Part shown: one piece after another, positions 19,255 to 64,000 of the stretch
How positions within the stretch are numbered: position 1 is the first letter of the stretch
Layout of the letters: every line of letters starts with the position of its first letter
Origin: a virus
DNA: 64,000 nucleotides
IMG/VR virus record: IMGVR_UViG_3300046501_000082
Span: 28,875 to 92,874 of that record
Strand: one strand, 5' to 3'
Notes under the pieces: model-generated
What the model was told of the DNA's origin: nothing
What the model saw: only the letters and a program-made list of their open reading frames with translations
The model's database searches: none
Made by a program: the position numbers and the translations under genes

Positions 19255-19899
19255 TTACTCCTTTGTTCTTCCAAAATACTTAATCTCGCCAGCAGCTCTG
19301 GCATCACAGGCTTCTTCGAAGGTGTCAAAATAGCCTAAGTTAATATCTTTTCTTTCAACCCCAATACGGGCACGCCACTTCTGTTGTTTTTCAACCCATG
19401 CCACACCTGTTCTGCCAGACTTGTTGTTTTTAAAGATACCTTTATTAAAGCTTTGAACTCTCCAAGTATCCCATACGCAGTTTTCTCTAGAGTAACCAAG
19501 TTTAGGATCTTCTCGTTCTAAAGTCAAACCCTCTTTATACGAGTCACCCATATCCCTCAAGAAGTTTTCAAACTGACGCCAGTCCTCTTGATCCAAACCA
19601 GCGCCCTTTCCTCCGTACTTATCCCAATTGGGGTCGTTTGGATTGGTGCAGCGTGAAACCATTGAACCCCATACAGCATAAATCTTAGATTTCCACATGC
19701 CATGTGTTCTATAAGAGCGTTCTGCTCTAAGGCAACCACACGATTGAGAATTTCCGTCTTTAATTTGATCCGCCCTAACTACTTTTTCTTTACCACAGTC
19801 GCACAAACAATTCCAGTAGGGCCTACCATTTTTAGATTCAGCAAAACTTATGATCGTCCATCTGTTATATTTATTACCTGTCAAGTCTTCGTGAGCCAT
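19255..19899 (-). CDS. Free-standing homing endonuclease with AP2-like domain
   Basis: 214 aa. N-terminal module: GNKYNRWTIIS...NCLCDCGKEKVV...SCGCLRAE, a zinc-binding unit frequent in phage AP2/HNH proteins. Middle: VWGSMVSRCTNPND...GLTLEREDPKLGYSRENCVWDTW, an HNH-like part. C-terminus: SGRTGVAWVEKQQKWRARIGVERKDINLGYFDTFEEAC, an AP2 DNA-binding domain. It is wedged between the primase-helicase and the intron-bearing polymerase; its end supplies the polymerase ribosome site. It may help move the polymerase intron (inference). Confidence 0.85.
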   Translation of the reverse strand: MAHEDLTGNKYNRWTIISFAESKNGRPYWNCLCDCGKEKVVRADQIKDGNSQSCGCLRAERSYRTHGMWKSKIYAVWGSMVSRCTNPNDPNWDKYGGKGAGLDQEDWRQFENFLRDMGDSYKEGLTLEREDPKLGYSRENCVWDTWRVQSFNKGIFKNNKSGRTGVAWVEKQQKWRARIGVERKDINLGYFDTFEEACDARAAGEIKYFGRTKE

Positions 19900-49529: not shown

Positions 49530-50357
49530 TTAACCCTTCTCAAAGTAAAATGCTTTAACCAAAGCCTTCGTAAGCTTACTACGACGACCACTATCTTCAA
49601 ATGTGAAGTTTACAAAACCAATATTGTTTTCCAGTTCATAAATATCCTCGGCGTCCAGAAACTTAGGTGGATTGGTTTTAATGCTGTCAAGAAGTTGGCT
49701 CAAGTACAACAAGCCTGTTTCCTTCCTGATATCTTTTTGACGCCAGTCCCCAGTCAAGCATAGCTGAGCACCATCACCAACCCTCGTAGTCATCATTTGC
49801 ATAAGGTCAGTGTCAAACCCTTGCGACTCCTCACAGAGCACCATAACACCATCCTCAAAAGAGTATCCTCTCAGCCATTCTACGCTTTTGAACTCCACAA
49901 CTTTCTTTTCAAGCATATACGCAAGTTGTGCTTTACCAAGAAACTTACTTAGATGCTCCAAGATACTAGTAAAAATCATTGACAATTTTTCGGTTTCGGA
50001 ACCGGGGACCGCACCTATTGTTCGACCACAAGATTCGTATGGACGTACCAAAAAGAGTTTATGAATCGCTTTGTCTCGCAGTTGGTTAGCAGCGTGCCAT
50101 GCAGCAAGAATTGACTTACCACCGCCTGCCGGTCCCTGCAATGCCACAATTTTACGTCCCTCTTGCAAATAATAAGCACCAAGTTTCTGTGCTTCACCGA
50201 TAGGCGTAAAGGGCATTGCGTTAAAAACCTTTTCTTCAGCAAACTTATCCCGATTTACAGCAGAACCCCCTACTTTAGTTTTACGTGTCCGAGTACGTGG
50301 GACCGAAACTTCGATTCCGTCAACTTCTACAATCGTCTGCCGATTTTTAGCACCCAT
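49530..50357 (-). CDS. phoH: PhoH-like ATPase
   Basis: 275 aa. Walker A LQGPAGGGKSI, Walker B MVLCEESQGF, sensor-like LCLTGDWRQKDI, and the DSGRRSKLTKAL end are the PhoH pattern. PhoH proteins are NTPases found in many phages, with a suggested RNA-related role. TGATG overlap with the endonuclease-like gene upstream. Confidence 0.88.
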   Translation of the reverse strand: MGAKNRQTIVEVDGIEVSVPRTRTRKTKVGGSAVNRDKFAEEKVFNAMPFTPIGEAQKLGAYYLQEGRKIVALQGPAGGGKSILAAWHAANQLRDKAIHKLFLVRPYESCGRTIGAVPGSETEKLSMIFTSILEHLSKFLGKAQLAYMLEKKVVEFKSVEWLRGYSFEDGVMVLCEESQGFDTDLMQMMTTRVGDGAQLCLTGDWRQKDIRKETGLLYLSQLLDSIKTNPPKFLDAEDIYELENNIGFVNFTFEDSGRRSKLTKALVKAFYFEKG

Positions 50358-51532
50358 CAGTCTGTTACCTCAACTTTCCAATTAATAAGGGATGTGTAAA
50401 CTTGTGAATTAATTTCAGATTTGTATTTCTCTGCAATTTCTTTTACAACAGACTCTTTAGCTTCTTTGTAAACCAAGAAAGCTTGTTCAGGTGTTGCAAA
50501 CCTCCCTAAGCAAATCCTACGACCTTCACGATTAATCTGAGCAATAAATTTGCCAGACTTTGCTTCTTTATGTACACCTAGTGGATAGTCACCTCTCTTA
50601 TTACCCCGCAAAGTAAACAAATTATTAATAGCTACAGGAACATACGAGCATTTATCTGGTGAGTAAATTTTATTACCTTGCTCAATAATATCTTTATCCA
50701 AACACCAGTCTTTATTTTTAATAAACTCCGGTTGAGATTCAGACCAAGCAGCAAAGTTCTGAAAACAATGCCACACTTTATGTACAGAGCAACCAACGTA
50801 GGTAATATTCTTTTTCAAGGACTCTTCATCATAGCAACGAGTGATCATGTTAGACCAGACAGTCCATAGCTGTAGAGAGTTTGCTGGTGAATATGTGCCC
50901 TCACCAATATACCCAACACCGGCTACACTCAAACGATAAGGGTTCCTAATACCGCGTTTTGCATCATTCCTAAGGACAACCTTCTCATAACCAAAAGAGT
51001 CCAAGAACTTAATTCTACATTTAGCTCCAGCCAAAAGTTCAATAATCTCAAATGTAGATCCGTAGAAATTCTCAATAATTTGACCAACTTCAACAGCGGG
51101 CTTCCGCTTTATCCCAGTCTTCTCATACTTAATTGTCGGCAGTAATGGTGTTGCCAACCAATCACGAATTGATCCATTCTTAATCTCTTTTACTGCACTC
51201 CAAGCCTCAAATCCAGACTTAGTAAACTTAACCTTAACTTTATTTGATGTTACATACTCTACAATTTCAAAGTCAAGGCCTTTCTTATTTTTAAGGACTT
51301 CACCTATAGCTACAGCAGGACGAAGATTGTTTTTACCGTTTTCACGAATAAGCTCTTTTTGCAAGCACCGACAAGATTGAGTCTTACCAGCCAATACACT
51401 ATGCACATCAGTTGTAGTTTCATTACCACATGAGCAACTGCACACAAATTTAGGCTTCGGATTACGAACTACACCAATGATTGTCAGTCTGCCATAAACT
51501 TCTCCTATATGTTTTGAATAAAAATCTTCCAC
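50357..51532 (-). CDS. Homing-endonuclease-like protein with repeat and AP2-like domains
   Basis: 391 aa. N-terminal zinc module GEVYGRLTIIGVV...CSCSCGNETT...SCRCLQ. Two repeats of about 60 residues follow (FEIVEYVTSNKVKVKF and FEIIELLAGAKCRIKF). Next is a nuclease-like block: LWTVWSNMITRCYDEES...KVWHCFQNFAAW...WCLDKDI. A terminal AP2-like part follows (GDYPLGVHKEAKSGKFIAQI...CLGRFATPEQAF). Homologous blocks occur at 1-492 and 61344-62099. Probably a selfish insertion before phoH. Confidence 0.75.
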   Translation of the reverse strand: MEDFYSKHIGEVYGRLTIIGVVRNPKPKFVCSCSCGNETTTDVHSVLAGKTQSCRCLQKELIRENGKNNLRPAVAIGEVLKNKKGLDFEIVEYVTSNKVKVKFTKSGFEAWSAVKEIKNGSIRDWLATPLLPTIKYEKTGIKRKPAVEVGQIIENFYGSTFEIIELLAGAKCRIKFLDSFGYEKVVLRNDAKRGIRNPYRLSVAGVGYIGEGTYSPANSLQLWTVWSNMITRCYDEESLKKNITYVGCSVHKVWHCFQNFAAWSESQPEFIKNKDWCLDKDIIEQGNKIYSPDKCSYVPVAINNLFTLRGNKRGDYPLGVHKEAKSGKFIAQINREGRRICLGRFATPEQAFLVYKEAKESVVKEIAEKYKSEINSQVYTSLINWKVEVTD

Positions 51533-60812: not shown

Positions 60813-60962
60813 GCTTAAGTTTTAAAGATGATTTATAGAGGATATTCATGGACGAATATCTTTTAGTAAGTTATTTTAATTATATTTTTAGAAAAGCTTG
60901 ACAGCGGTGATAAATGTTTGATACACTTCATCCTCAAGATTAAGAACAGAGGAGAATTTAAA

Positions 60963-61310
60963 GTGAGTAATAAATATATTGCATATGTAACTGGTAGTGA
61001 TGCTATTGGTTATTCGTTTATGAAGAATGTTGTAGAGCTTGCTCAGAAAGGGGCAACTCTTCAGGAAGGTAAAGTTCCTTGTCTACGTTTTCCTCATTCA
61101 GCTTTCATGGAATTTGAAACTGATGAGTTGATGGAAGATAAACCGGGATTTAGGTATCAGATTGTTTGTGAAAATCTTACACGCGAGCAGCTTGACGATC
61201 TTGAGTGGGAAGCTTTTAAAAAGCAACTTAAACGTCAGTTCGGTATTGGTGGGAGAAACCGAGAGCAGATGACTCGTGAGTATTTGAAAGCTTCTGGTCA
61301 GGAAGAATAA
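60963..61310 (+). CDS. Hypothetical protein in the structural block
   Basis: 115 aa from the GTG at 60963 (GAGGAGAA upstream). MSNKYIAYVTGSDAIGYSFM; C-terminal basic helix (KKQLKRQFGIGGRNREQMTR). Function unknown. Confidence 0.6.
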   Translation: MSNKYIAYVTGSDAIGYSFMKNVVELAQKGATLQEGKVPCLRFPHSAFMEFETDELMEDKPGFRYQIVCENLTREQLDDLEWEAFKKQLKRQFGIGGRNREQMTREYLKASGQEE

Positions 61311-61343: not shown

Positions 61344-62099
61344 ATGGCTAACAAAGTTGGAAACTATCGCAAAACTTATGATCAGTTCTATGAGTCGAAT
61401 GGCTACGGCACACTTGAGGTGCTAGGACGGGCTGAGGGAAGTAAGAAGTTGCGTGTTAGGTTTGTTAACACCGGGTACGAAACAATTGCCGAAGCGGGTA
61501 ATGTGCTTGCTGGAAAGGTAAGAGATTTTAGTGTACCCCGGGCAAATACACATGATTGGCAAGCTTGGGATGAAGACTTTACCAATAATGCCGGATTCAG
61601 CGGTAAGATCATCAGTAAGAAAGCCAGTAAGTGTGTTGTGCAGTTTAATGAGACTGGGTATACAACAACCGTAGAAATTCATAATGTTCGTAAGGGTAAG
61701 ATTTCAGATCCTTATAGCAAGACATTCTTGGATATCGGTTACTTGGGTGAATACGAACTTCTACCTTATTGGAAACAAGCTAAACAGCTTTGGTCTAATA
61801 TGATGAAACGTTGTTATAACCCAAAAGATTATATGGGCTATTTTGGTCGTTGCTTTGTTGATGCCCGTTGGCACTGTTTTGCAAACTTTCTTACTGACAT
61901 TTCTAAACTTGAAAACTTTGAGATGTGGCTTAATGCCAGTGAGACAGGACTTAAATACAATCTTGATAAAGATTTAAAAGTTCCAGATAACAAAGTGTAC
62001 TCACGAGAGCTTTGCATGTTTGTGACTGAGTATGAAAATAAGTCAGCAGGAGCAGTTAATGCCCGTGCATTAGATAAGGTAAACGGTAGATATGTCTGA
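61344..62099 (+). CDS. Homing-endonuclease-like protein beside terL
   Basis: 251 aa, GGGAGAA upstream. Two DNA-binding-like repeats (RVRFVNTGYETIAEAGNVL and CVVQFNETGYTTTVEIHNV) precede a nuclease-like block: LWSNMMKRCYNPKD...RWHCFANFLTD...YNLDKDLKVPDNKVYSRELC. The same modules occur at 50357-51532 (minus). It lacks the Cys-rich start and AP2 end. It overlaps the terL start by 8 bases and sits 91 bases before the first terL intron. Confidence 0.7.
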   Translation: MANKVGNYRKTYDQFYESNGYGTLEVLGRAEGSKKLRVRFVNTGYETIAEAGNVLAGKVRDFSVPRANTHDWQAWDEDFTNNAGFSGKIISKKASKCVVQFNETGYTTTVEIHNVRKGKISDPYSKTFLDIGYLGEYELLPYWKQAKQLWSNMMKRCYNPKDYMGYFGRCFVDARWHCFANFLTDISKLENFEMWLNASETGLKYNLDKDLKVPDNKVYSRELCMFVTEYENKSAGAVNARALDKVNGRYV

Positions 62100-64000
62100 C
62101 GATAATGTTGTATCGCCAGCCAGCCCCAAGCAAGCAGCCTTTCTCAAGGCTGTTTCAGAAAATGATATAGTCCTCTTCGGAGGCGCGGCTTAACACTATG
62201 GGTCGCGTAAAACCCCTCTAATTGCTGGAACTCTCAAAGAGACAATCAGCAGCGAAGGCTTAGAAATAAGTAACGTTCAGAGACTATCGAAAAGACACTT
62301 TAAAGTGGAACTTAGTAGAGTAGGTTGCAAGTGCAATCGAAACGGGGGGCAACTTAATAGTTGAAGATATAGTCCGATTCTTTCAGCAATGGAAGGAAGT
62401 TTAACGAACTTCATAAGTATTTGGGTAGTGGTAAAAGTTATCTGGGGGTAATGGCTTTTCTTCAGTGGGCACAAGATCCCGCTATGGAAAAGTTTCGTGG
62501 AGTTATTCTGCGAAGGACGATGGTCCAAGTGACAGGCCCCGGCGGTCCGGCTGAGACTGGACAAGAGATTTACCAACAGTTTGGTGCTCAGTTTAAAATT
62601 AAAGACAGTAAATTTATTTTTCCGAATAAAGCTACTATTGTTTGTAAGGGCTGTGAGCAAGAGAAAGATAAGCATAACTTCCAAGGCTGGCAAGTTAGTG
62701 CATTTCTAGTTGACGAGGCTCAGCAGTTCGAAGAAAGTCAAGTGCTTTATTTCATCTCGCGGATGCGTACAGCAGCACCAATGAAGCCTGTGATGATGAT
62801 GACGGCGAACCCTGATTATAACAGCTACCTCCGTAAGTGGCTAGAAGATGCAGGGTATTTGGATGAACGTGGCCTCCCTCGTAAAGATCGTGATGGTAAA
62901 CGTATGTGGTTCATCCGTATAGACAACCAAATGGTCTGGAATGAATCAAAGGAAGAGTTACTTGCGACCTACGGTGAAAACTGTGGTCCTATGTCATTCG
63001 TTTTCCTGCCTGCAAATTGTCACGATAATCCAGTTTTGCTTCGACGTGATCCATCCTACGCCCATAAACTTATGAATATGCCTCGCGTAGAAATGGAACG
63101 CCTTTACCTCGGCTCGTGGTATGCGAAAGAATCTACAAGTGGCTTCTTTAAGAAAGAGTTTTGTACTCCCGTAAAACTACACGAACAGAATATCGTCTCT
63201 TACTGCCGTGCGTGGGATATCGCCGGAAGTTTGCCCAGTGAGGCTATGCCAAATCCTGATGCAACAGCTGGCGTCTTGATAGCTAAGACAAAATCTGGAA
63301 GATATATTGTTGTGGATGTAGTTAGGTTCAAAGCTAGGTTTGGTGAAGTCATGCAACGTATGATTGAAACTGCCAAATCAGATCCTGAAGGAACTCAGAT
63401 TCTTCTACCTCAAGAGCCTGGCCAAGCCGGAAAAGCAGCAGGTCAAATGATGATTAAAGAACTCCTTGAAGAAGGGTTCTATGCTCGCATGCGTCCAACT
63501 AACAAGTCTAAGGTAGTTCGTTTCCAACCCTTCGCAGCAGCAGCCGAAGCTGGCCTTGTTGACTATGTAGAAGATGCTTGGAACGATGTTTACTTCGACG
63601 AGTTGGAGCAATTTGACGGAAGTCGAAAAAATAAAGACGATTTACTAATCTTGGTCGTCTATAAACCCATTGAATTCGGTGGACATCTCATTAGAGACAA
63701 TACCGAGCGAAGCTAGAGAAATCTAGAACGTGTAACGACTATCGAAAACACACAGTAATGTGGAAGTGAGTAGAGTAGGGTCAAGTGACCCGAAGCGGTG
63801 GGCAAACAATTTTGTTTGAAGATATAGTCTCCTCTATATAGTGATATATAGCAGTCCCAATGGACTGAATAAGAATTAACGACTCTTATTTAAGATGATG
63901 CAGGTTGATGCAACAAGTGATGCTTTCATTACACTCGCACAGAAAATTATGATTCCAAACTTCACCTCCGGTTTAATCTCAGCAAACCTGACTAGACCAA
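62092..64000 (+). CDS. terL: Terminase large subunit, split by two group I introns (partial)
   Basis: Join 62092..62190, 62424..63641, 63895..64000 and onward. Exon 1 gives MSDDNVVSPAS...DIVLFGGAA and exon 2 begins GSGKSYLG; together they form Walker A FGGAAGSGKS. Walker B is FLVDEAQQF near residue 130. MMTANPDYNS is the coupling region. The nuclease domain has RAWDIAGS with its first Asp. Exon 2 ends NKDD and exon 3 continues MMQVDATSDAF, restoring the C-terminal acidic motif. Motor and nuclease for packaging. The 3' end lies outside the window. A TTG at 62421 would make a product lacking the P-loop start and is not the real start. Confidence 0.92.
62191..62423 (+). ncRNA. Group I intron 1 in terL (233 nt, no ORF)
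   Basis: Exon end CGCGGCT pairs with GGTCGCG at 62201-62207 over 7 bp, with the U-G pair at the splice site. CACTAT (62194-62199) can pair with the first bases of exon 2 as P10. P7 strands GACTATC (62282-62288) and GATATAGTC (62366-62374). Last base G. Removal joins the Walker A codons in frame. Confidence 0.92.
63642..63894 (+). ncRNA. Group I intron 2 in terL (253 nt, no ORF)
   Basis: Exon end GACGAT pairs with GGTCGTC (from 63653) with U-G at the splice site. P7 strands GACTATC (63737-63743) and GATATAGTC (63821-63829); GAGTAGGG and CGAAGCGGTGGG between them match the other two introns. Last base G. The exon frame continues as MMQVDATSDAF. Confidence 0.9.

Follow-up and report, generated by a model that had tools for sequence, protein, structure and literature searches.

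The terL locus analyzed here bears on how group I introns without an open reading frame keep spreading, and on how introns come to be associated with homing endonucleases: the codons of its Walker A motif are split by such an intron, and an endonuclease-like gene overlaps its start. The stretch of DNA under study (the window; 64,000 nucleotides) comes from a virus record of 92,874 bases, of which it covers 28875-92874. An original prediction had placed a group I intron inside the Walker A motif, and this assignment stands: over the element, here termed intron A (62191-62423, plus strand, 233 nt, ORF-less), the covariance model RF00028, which scores the conserved P3-P8 core, was matched along its full length with 86.3 bits and an E value of 1.3e-20 across the window (cmscan; gathering threshold 50), and intronless TerL proteins are colinear with the spliced product. 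The gene starts with the ATG at 62092. Its first exon (62092-62190, plus strand, MSDDNVVSP...VLFGGAA) consists of 33 codons that finish with GGAGGCGCGGCT; the exon terminates with ...TTCGGAGGCGCGGCT at 62190, and a TAA stop codon follows directly. Intron A reads TAACACTATG...AGTATTTG, with G as its final base, and exon 2 (62424-63641, plus strand, GSGKS... to ...SRKNKDD) starts at 62424 with GGTAGTGGTAAAAGT, the P-loop codons. Joining of the two exons links GCU to GGU and yields FGGAAGSGKS, so that reading frame and restored motif confirm the predicted limits to the nucleotide. Homologous first exons are found in L004-L008 and L014, where the same site (GGAA|GSGKS) is filled likewise.

The spliced TerL of 478 amino acids contains the Pfam domains Terminase_6N and Terminase_6C, and Pfam and tblastn assign the ATPase, along with the larger part of the nuclease domain, to exon 2. 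Pseudomonas phage TerLs that lack introns and carry GSGKS at this place matched 97-99% of the spliced protein in tblastn, as an unbroken alignment with 47-49% identity, in line with the original prediction. Comparison thus establishes the identity and boundaries of intron A, and supports the view that a group I intron splits the Walker A codons of terL and that its excision would restore the P-loop. The third exon (63895-64000, plus strand) is cut by the record end; since an identical stretch of 127 bases is found at both record ends (at the end of the window and at the record start, G000:C1:1-127), the record probably represents a complete, circular genome of about 92.7 kb, and the final TerL codons (...NIFT stop) sit at the record start.

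The case for splicing was examined in 13 terL loci, the window included, that carry an intron at exactly the GGAA|G codon boundary. The 7-bp P1 helix with a U.G pair at the boundary, as predicted, was found in the window, with an additional outer G.U pair: exon strand GCGCGGCU (62183-62190, plus strand) forms eight pairs with the internal guide sequence GGUCGCGU (62201-62208, plus strand), with the U.G pair at the splice site. All 13 introns are preceded by U, end with G and form 7-9 contiguous P1 pairs, and P1 varies in a compensatory manner, with pair -4 being G-C in the window and C-G in L065 and L067, and pair -7 being C-G, A-U or G.U. The predicted P10 candidate was supported as well. In the window, the intron strand CACUAU (62194-62199, plus strand) forms 6 bp with GUAGUG of exon 2 (62425-62430), and a P10 of 4-7 bp, always located one base ahead of the guide, is present in all 13 loci, its mean length being 5.8 bp with the own 3' exon versus 3.2 bp when exons are swapped among loci. 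L065 and L067 have the exon codons GGA AGT instead of GGT AGT, and the intron strand is altered to match. Beyond the exon contacts, two-sided changes that keep pairing were seen at 31 of 58 predicted consensus pairs in a 12-sequence alignment, and the P3-P7 interval contains an insertion in which one hairpin clearly covaries (alignment columns 168-183), at the position that P7.1/P7.2 would take in subgroup IA. The fold of the single intron A sequence is modestly unusual only (z -1.9), as expected for a pseudoknotted intron. Covariation in P1, P10 and the fold argues that the RNA structure and its contacts with both exons are under selection, from which we infer that intron A is spliced in the window phage. 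Separate fragments would also be compatible with the sequence if the intron had ceased to splice and TerL were produced in pieces, but the compensatory P1/P10 changes among the 13 loci and the U preceding the intron and its terminal G, both strict across 33 Walker A introns, reveal selection for splicing, and a split P-loop would be hard to complement; we regard this reading as very improbable.

Our best explanation, with a rough probability of 0.88, is a self-splicing mobile group I intron in the terL P-loop. In the terL transcript, the last 8 nt of exon 1 would pair with the guide (P1), the first codons of exon 2 would pair alongside it (P10), and excision of intron A, with guanosine as the cofactor, would bring GCU and GGU together to give GGAAGSGKS.

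To place this locus in context, terL loci were collected from IMG/VR with the TerL exon 2 protein and alignments alone, as loci should not be chosen by their intron or endonuclease; family alignments were used since a first search with a single TerL protein retrieved six relatives only. Among the 79 classified loci, 33 (the window included) carry a Walker A intron, in two positions: site A (GGAA|G) in 13 loci and site A' (GG|A(A/M)G), two codons upstream, in 20. The Walker A motif of the other 46 is uninterrupted. Intron-bearing loci span TerLs down to 30% amino acid identity, so that the notion of a P-loop site giving access to many related phages is supported as a distribution. The last exon codon is always GCT at site A, and mostly GCA or GCC in intronless loci. 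Bacillus phage AR9, with a terL gene that matches intron DNA, was discarded as a Walker A case since its intron resides elsewhere (DADKLG|), and the 21-base intron motif AAACCCCTNTAATTGCTGGAA did not prove site-specific, as about half of its 20 IMG/VR matches lie outside the terL Walker A motif (L032-L035, L037, L039, L043, L047, L048 and L050).

Patchy presence of the intron among relatives, with intronless loci reaching about 80% TerL identity to intron-bearing ones, fits a selfish element. It also speaks against the idea that the intron is kept as a regulator, with splicing setting or postponing the time at which active TerL is made, an idea that would gain from the proposal that phage introns act as molecular on-switches and from the splicing of phiAGATE TerL in the second half of the cycle (PMC11878797); on balance, we consider a regulatory role unlikely.

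Introns in terL with proven splicing are already known. That of Vibrio phage ICP1 has been verified by RT-PCR and RNA-seq (PMC10448857), and splicing was also reported for the terL introns of Shewanella phage KASIA (PMC8541194) and Pectobacterium phage CB7 (PMC7344957). Among Bastillevirinae, which likewise have group I introns in terL, the SIOphi intron self-splices in vitro and those of SIOphi and phiAGATE splice in vivo; unlike in the window, introns of that survey have a mean length of about 800 nt and many harbor intron-encoded endonucleases (PMC11878797). Introns in terL are further common in Jug phages (PMC12363816), and conserved sites are favored by group I introns and inteins in general (PMC2814812). 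ICP1, the closest case, resembles the window in having a terL exon 1 of about 33 codons, an ORF-less gap and an exon 2 that starts in the Walker A loop, as well as an endonuclease gene directly upstream that overlaps the terL start; that endonuclease, T5orf172 gp130 (PMC10448857), belongs to another family, however. Judged by its sequence, the ICP1 intron also interrupts the P-loop, as YGGA|AGGGKS, one codon upstream of that of the window; RF00028 gave no match on it at E 0.01. A further counterpart is the isolate Vibrio phage 11895-B1 (NC_020843), with an intron at the identical position GGAA|GSGKS (GGCGCAGCT|GGTTCAGGT), a 7-bp P1 and 73% DNA identity over 189 bases; it differs from the window in its GIY-YIG-like upstream endonuclease and a second RF00028 match elsewhere in terL. 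The public terL annotation of NC_020843 (L052, 2381-2729) starts at exon 2, omitting exon 1 and the intron. That the window stems from a metagenomic virus record might raise the suspicion of an assembly artefact or a chance resemblance, but independent metagenomes and isolate 11895-B1 share this intron at an unchanged position, which, together with the Rfam E value, makes this a negligible concern. No paper in the literature searched was found to mention a group I intron in combination with both terL and Walker A.

Intron A is one of three group I introns in the window, in none of which an ORF of note was found. Intron B (63642-63894, plus strand, 253 nt, ORF-less; RF00028 73.6 bits) interrupts the nuclease motif of TerL (KDD|MMQVDATSDAF), where it would act in the same way as intron A; the cmscan span was 63586-63851, and the limits were placed by frame restoration and the U.G rule. 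This nuclease site is filled in 11 of the 79 surveyed loci and empty in L004, L007 and L008, and an endonuclease ORF lies within the intron in L021, L023, L024 and phage KIL4. About nine of the 79 loci have an intron in mid-exon 2. L009 (1-1900) and L014 (3193-5293) have three group I introns per terL, one of them in mid-exon 2, which in L009 splits Walker B (LVD|EAQ). The third ORF-less intron of the window (17072-16836, minus strand; RF00028 79 bits at 17083-16863, limits by reading frame and U.G rule) interrupts DNA polymerase A at YH|DEAQ in catalytic motif C, and its removal gives an 838-aa polymerase frame read from TTG at 19328. On the same strand, HNH endonuclease-like ORFs are located directly upstream of polA (19255-19899) and of a phoH-like gene (50357-51532), so that a position immediately beside an essential gene is typical of endonuclease genes in the window phage.

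The survey further revealed introns that are far more similar than the genes they occupy. Four pairs of site A' introns (L125/L103, L125/L096, L123/L105 and L126/L105), each from different metagenomes, are 97% identical at the DNA level, and their TerL exons share 46-51% protein and 55-57% DNA identity. For the site A pair L054/L008, 81% intron DNA identity compares with 35% TerL identity, and L054 is nested among the close relatives of the window in the intron tree. Near-identical introns in diverged TerLs indicate, as judged by this comparison, that the Walker A introns have spread horizontally. As exon bases beside the 97% identical introns show about background identity, except for those held in P1, the introns would have moved with very short flanks. 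Around intron A, no co-conversion gradient was detected in the downstream exon; the 30 nt of exon 1 preceding the intron (62161-62190) are identical in the window, L004, L005, L006 and L008, and about a quarter of positions differ between the window and L008 in both intron and exon 2. This identical stretch may have arisen as a conversion tract or may serve an endonuclease as its recognition site. Taken by its sequence relationships, intron A appears to belong to a known kind of selfish element and to spread between phages without an enzyme of its own.

As intron A encodes no endonuclease, any homing needs help in trans, which directs attention to the free-standing ORF of 251 aa immediately upstream (61344-62099, plus strand), whose stop overlaps the terL start. 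The ORF is HNH homing-endonuclease-like based on its match to phrog_2081 (HNH endonuclease, E 8e-46); no Pfam match above cut-off was found. Its predicted model (pLDDT 80) gave structural matches from the N-terminal Tudor/SH3-like repeats only; for the nuclease domain, the structure search returned nothing usable and fold comparison gave no confirmation. All eight IMG/VR loci found to carry relatives are at terL, six with the gene directly upstream (L005, L006, L019-L022) and two (L023, L024) with the gene in the nuclease-site intron, as is also the case in the isolate Pseudomonas phage KIL4. Different endonuclease-like proteins occupy the upstream position at other site-A loci: HNH/NUMOD3 proteins in L004 and L008, NUMOD4-HNH in L054, T5orf172/GIY-YIG-like proteins in L007, L083 and 11895-B1, and HNH proteins with zinc-ribbon/AP2 features in L014, L060, L065 and L067. 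The window also has a 130-aa ORF (60918-61310) without a family match. In many relatives, its homologues recur ahead of terL at a distance of one or two genes; its product is possibly a small terminase subunit or a packaging protein.

Upstream ORFs were grouped into clusters by similarity and classed accordingly, and cluster representatives were compared with Pfam and PHROGs. An endonuclease-like ORF is located directly upstream of terL at 13 of 13 site-A loci, always within about 100-210 bp of the insertion point, at 28 of 33 loci with any Walker A intron and at 25 of 46 intronless loci. This enrichment (odds ratio 4.7, Fisher p 0.007 for all loci, with statistics that ignore phylogeny) weakened with dereplication, with p values of 0.006, 0.075 and 0.12 at 95%, 90% and 85%, respectively. 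Among the intronless loci, L055 (a fragment with no family match) and L059 (distant) were scored as endonucleases, a choice that works against the association. A strict pairing of intron and endonuclease was dropped, since in L070, on the same contig as L019, the Walker A site is empty beside an endonuclease with 89% identity, and since endonucleases beside 97% identical introns share at most 25-39% identity over 60-119 residues. Likewise, the value of an upstream endonuclease as a marker of intron-bearing terL genes is weakened by its presence in about half of the intronless loci, which also implies that the position upstream of terL is a general hot spot. Partner swapping and short flanks together argue against joint transfer of intron and endonuclease as a single unit.

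Two readings of this loose association have to be weighed. According to the first, spread occurs in trans by collaborative homing: a free-standing endonuclease, for example the neighboring ORF, would cut an intronless terL near its 5' end, and break repair would copy the intron into it. Codons that are constant in the ATPase would be a suitable target, as many phages would be available and imprecise loss would be harmful. Such homing has been demonstrated in other phages, namely T3/T7-like phages and cyanophage S-PM2 with F-CphI/psbA, where, as in the window, an ORF-less intron adjoins a free-standing endonuclease gene; there, the enzyme target was shown to correspond to the intron insertion site, as is presumed for the window (review PMC3984707). 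Given an intron without an enzyme, an endonuclease at every site-A locus and a pathway demonstrated in other phages, we favor spread in trans, with chances that we judge to be about even. According to the second reading, endonuclease and intron would have settled at terL independently, the former in a general hot spot just 5' of the gene, the latter by reverse splicing into RNA and recombination or by means of an intron-encoded endonuclease that was later lost. The endonuclease-like ORFs at more than half of the intronless terL loci, the near-identical introns beside dissimilar endonucleases with almost no co-converted exon, and the presence of such ORFs directly upstream of phoH, which has no intron, and of polA, which has one at a distance of 2.2 kb, would all be in line with such independence. 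The ICP1 authors, who discuss either collaborative homing or endonuclease turnover for their phage, also call the position upstream of the terminase a hot spot (PMC10448857). The complete co-occurrence at site A, the overall odds ratio and the finding of the same endonuclease family inside terL introns of other phages speak against independence, which we rate as a serious contender with a less than even chance. Collaborative homing could also be extended to a broader model, which we put forward only tentatively, in which the Walker A loop would be a shared docking point for ORF-less introns at two or three neighboring codons, and dissimilar upstream endonucleases would rotate as interchangeable mobilizing partners.

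To the terL introns known to splice, the survey adds neighboring insertion positions within one and the same P-loop. On the strength of the comparisons made here, it also adds what appears to be recent transfer between deeply diverged TerLs and a loose association with dissimilar endonucleases. The loci form a natural series of filled and empty Walker A sites, with introns that are almost the same in terL genes whose proteins share about 50% identity and with one endonuclease family found beside the intron, without the intron and inside terL introns; such a series of filled, empty and swapped-partner loci makes collaborative homing testable. As a gene, terL is a marker for phage taxonomy, and a terL gene interrupted in this way may be annotated without its P-loop exon, which should be taken as a warning for marker-gene use.
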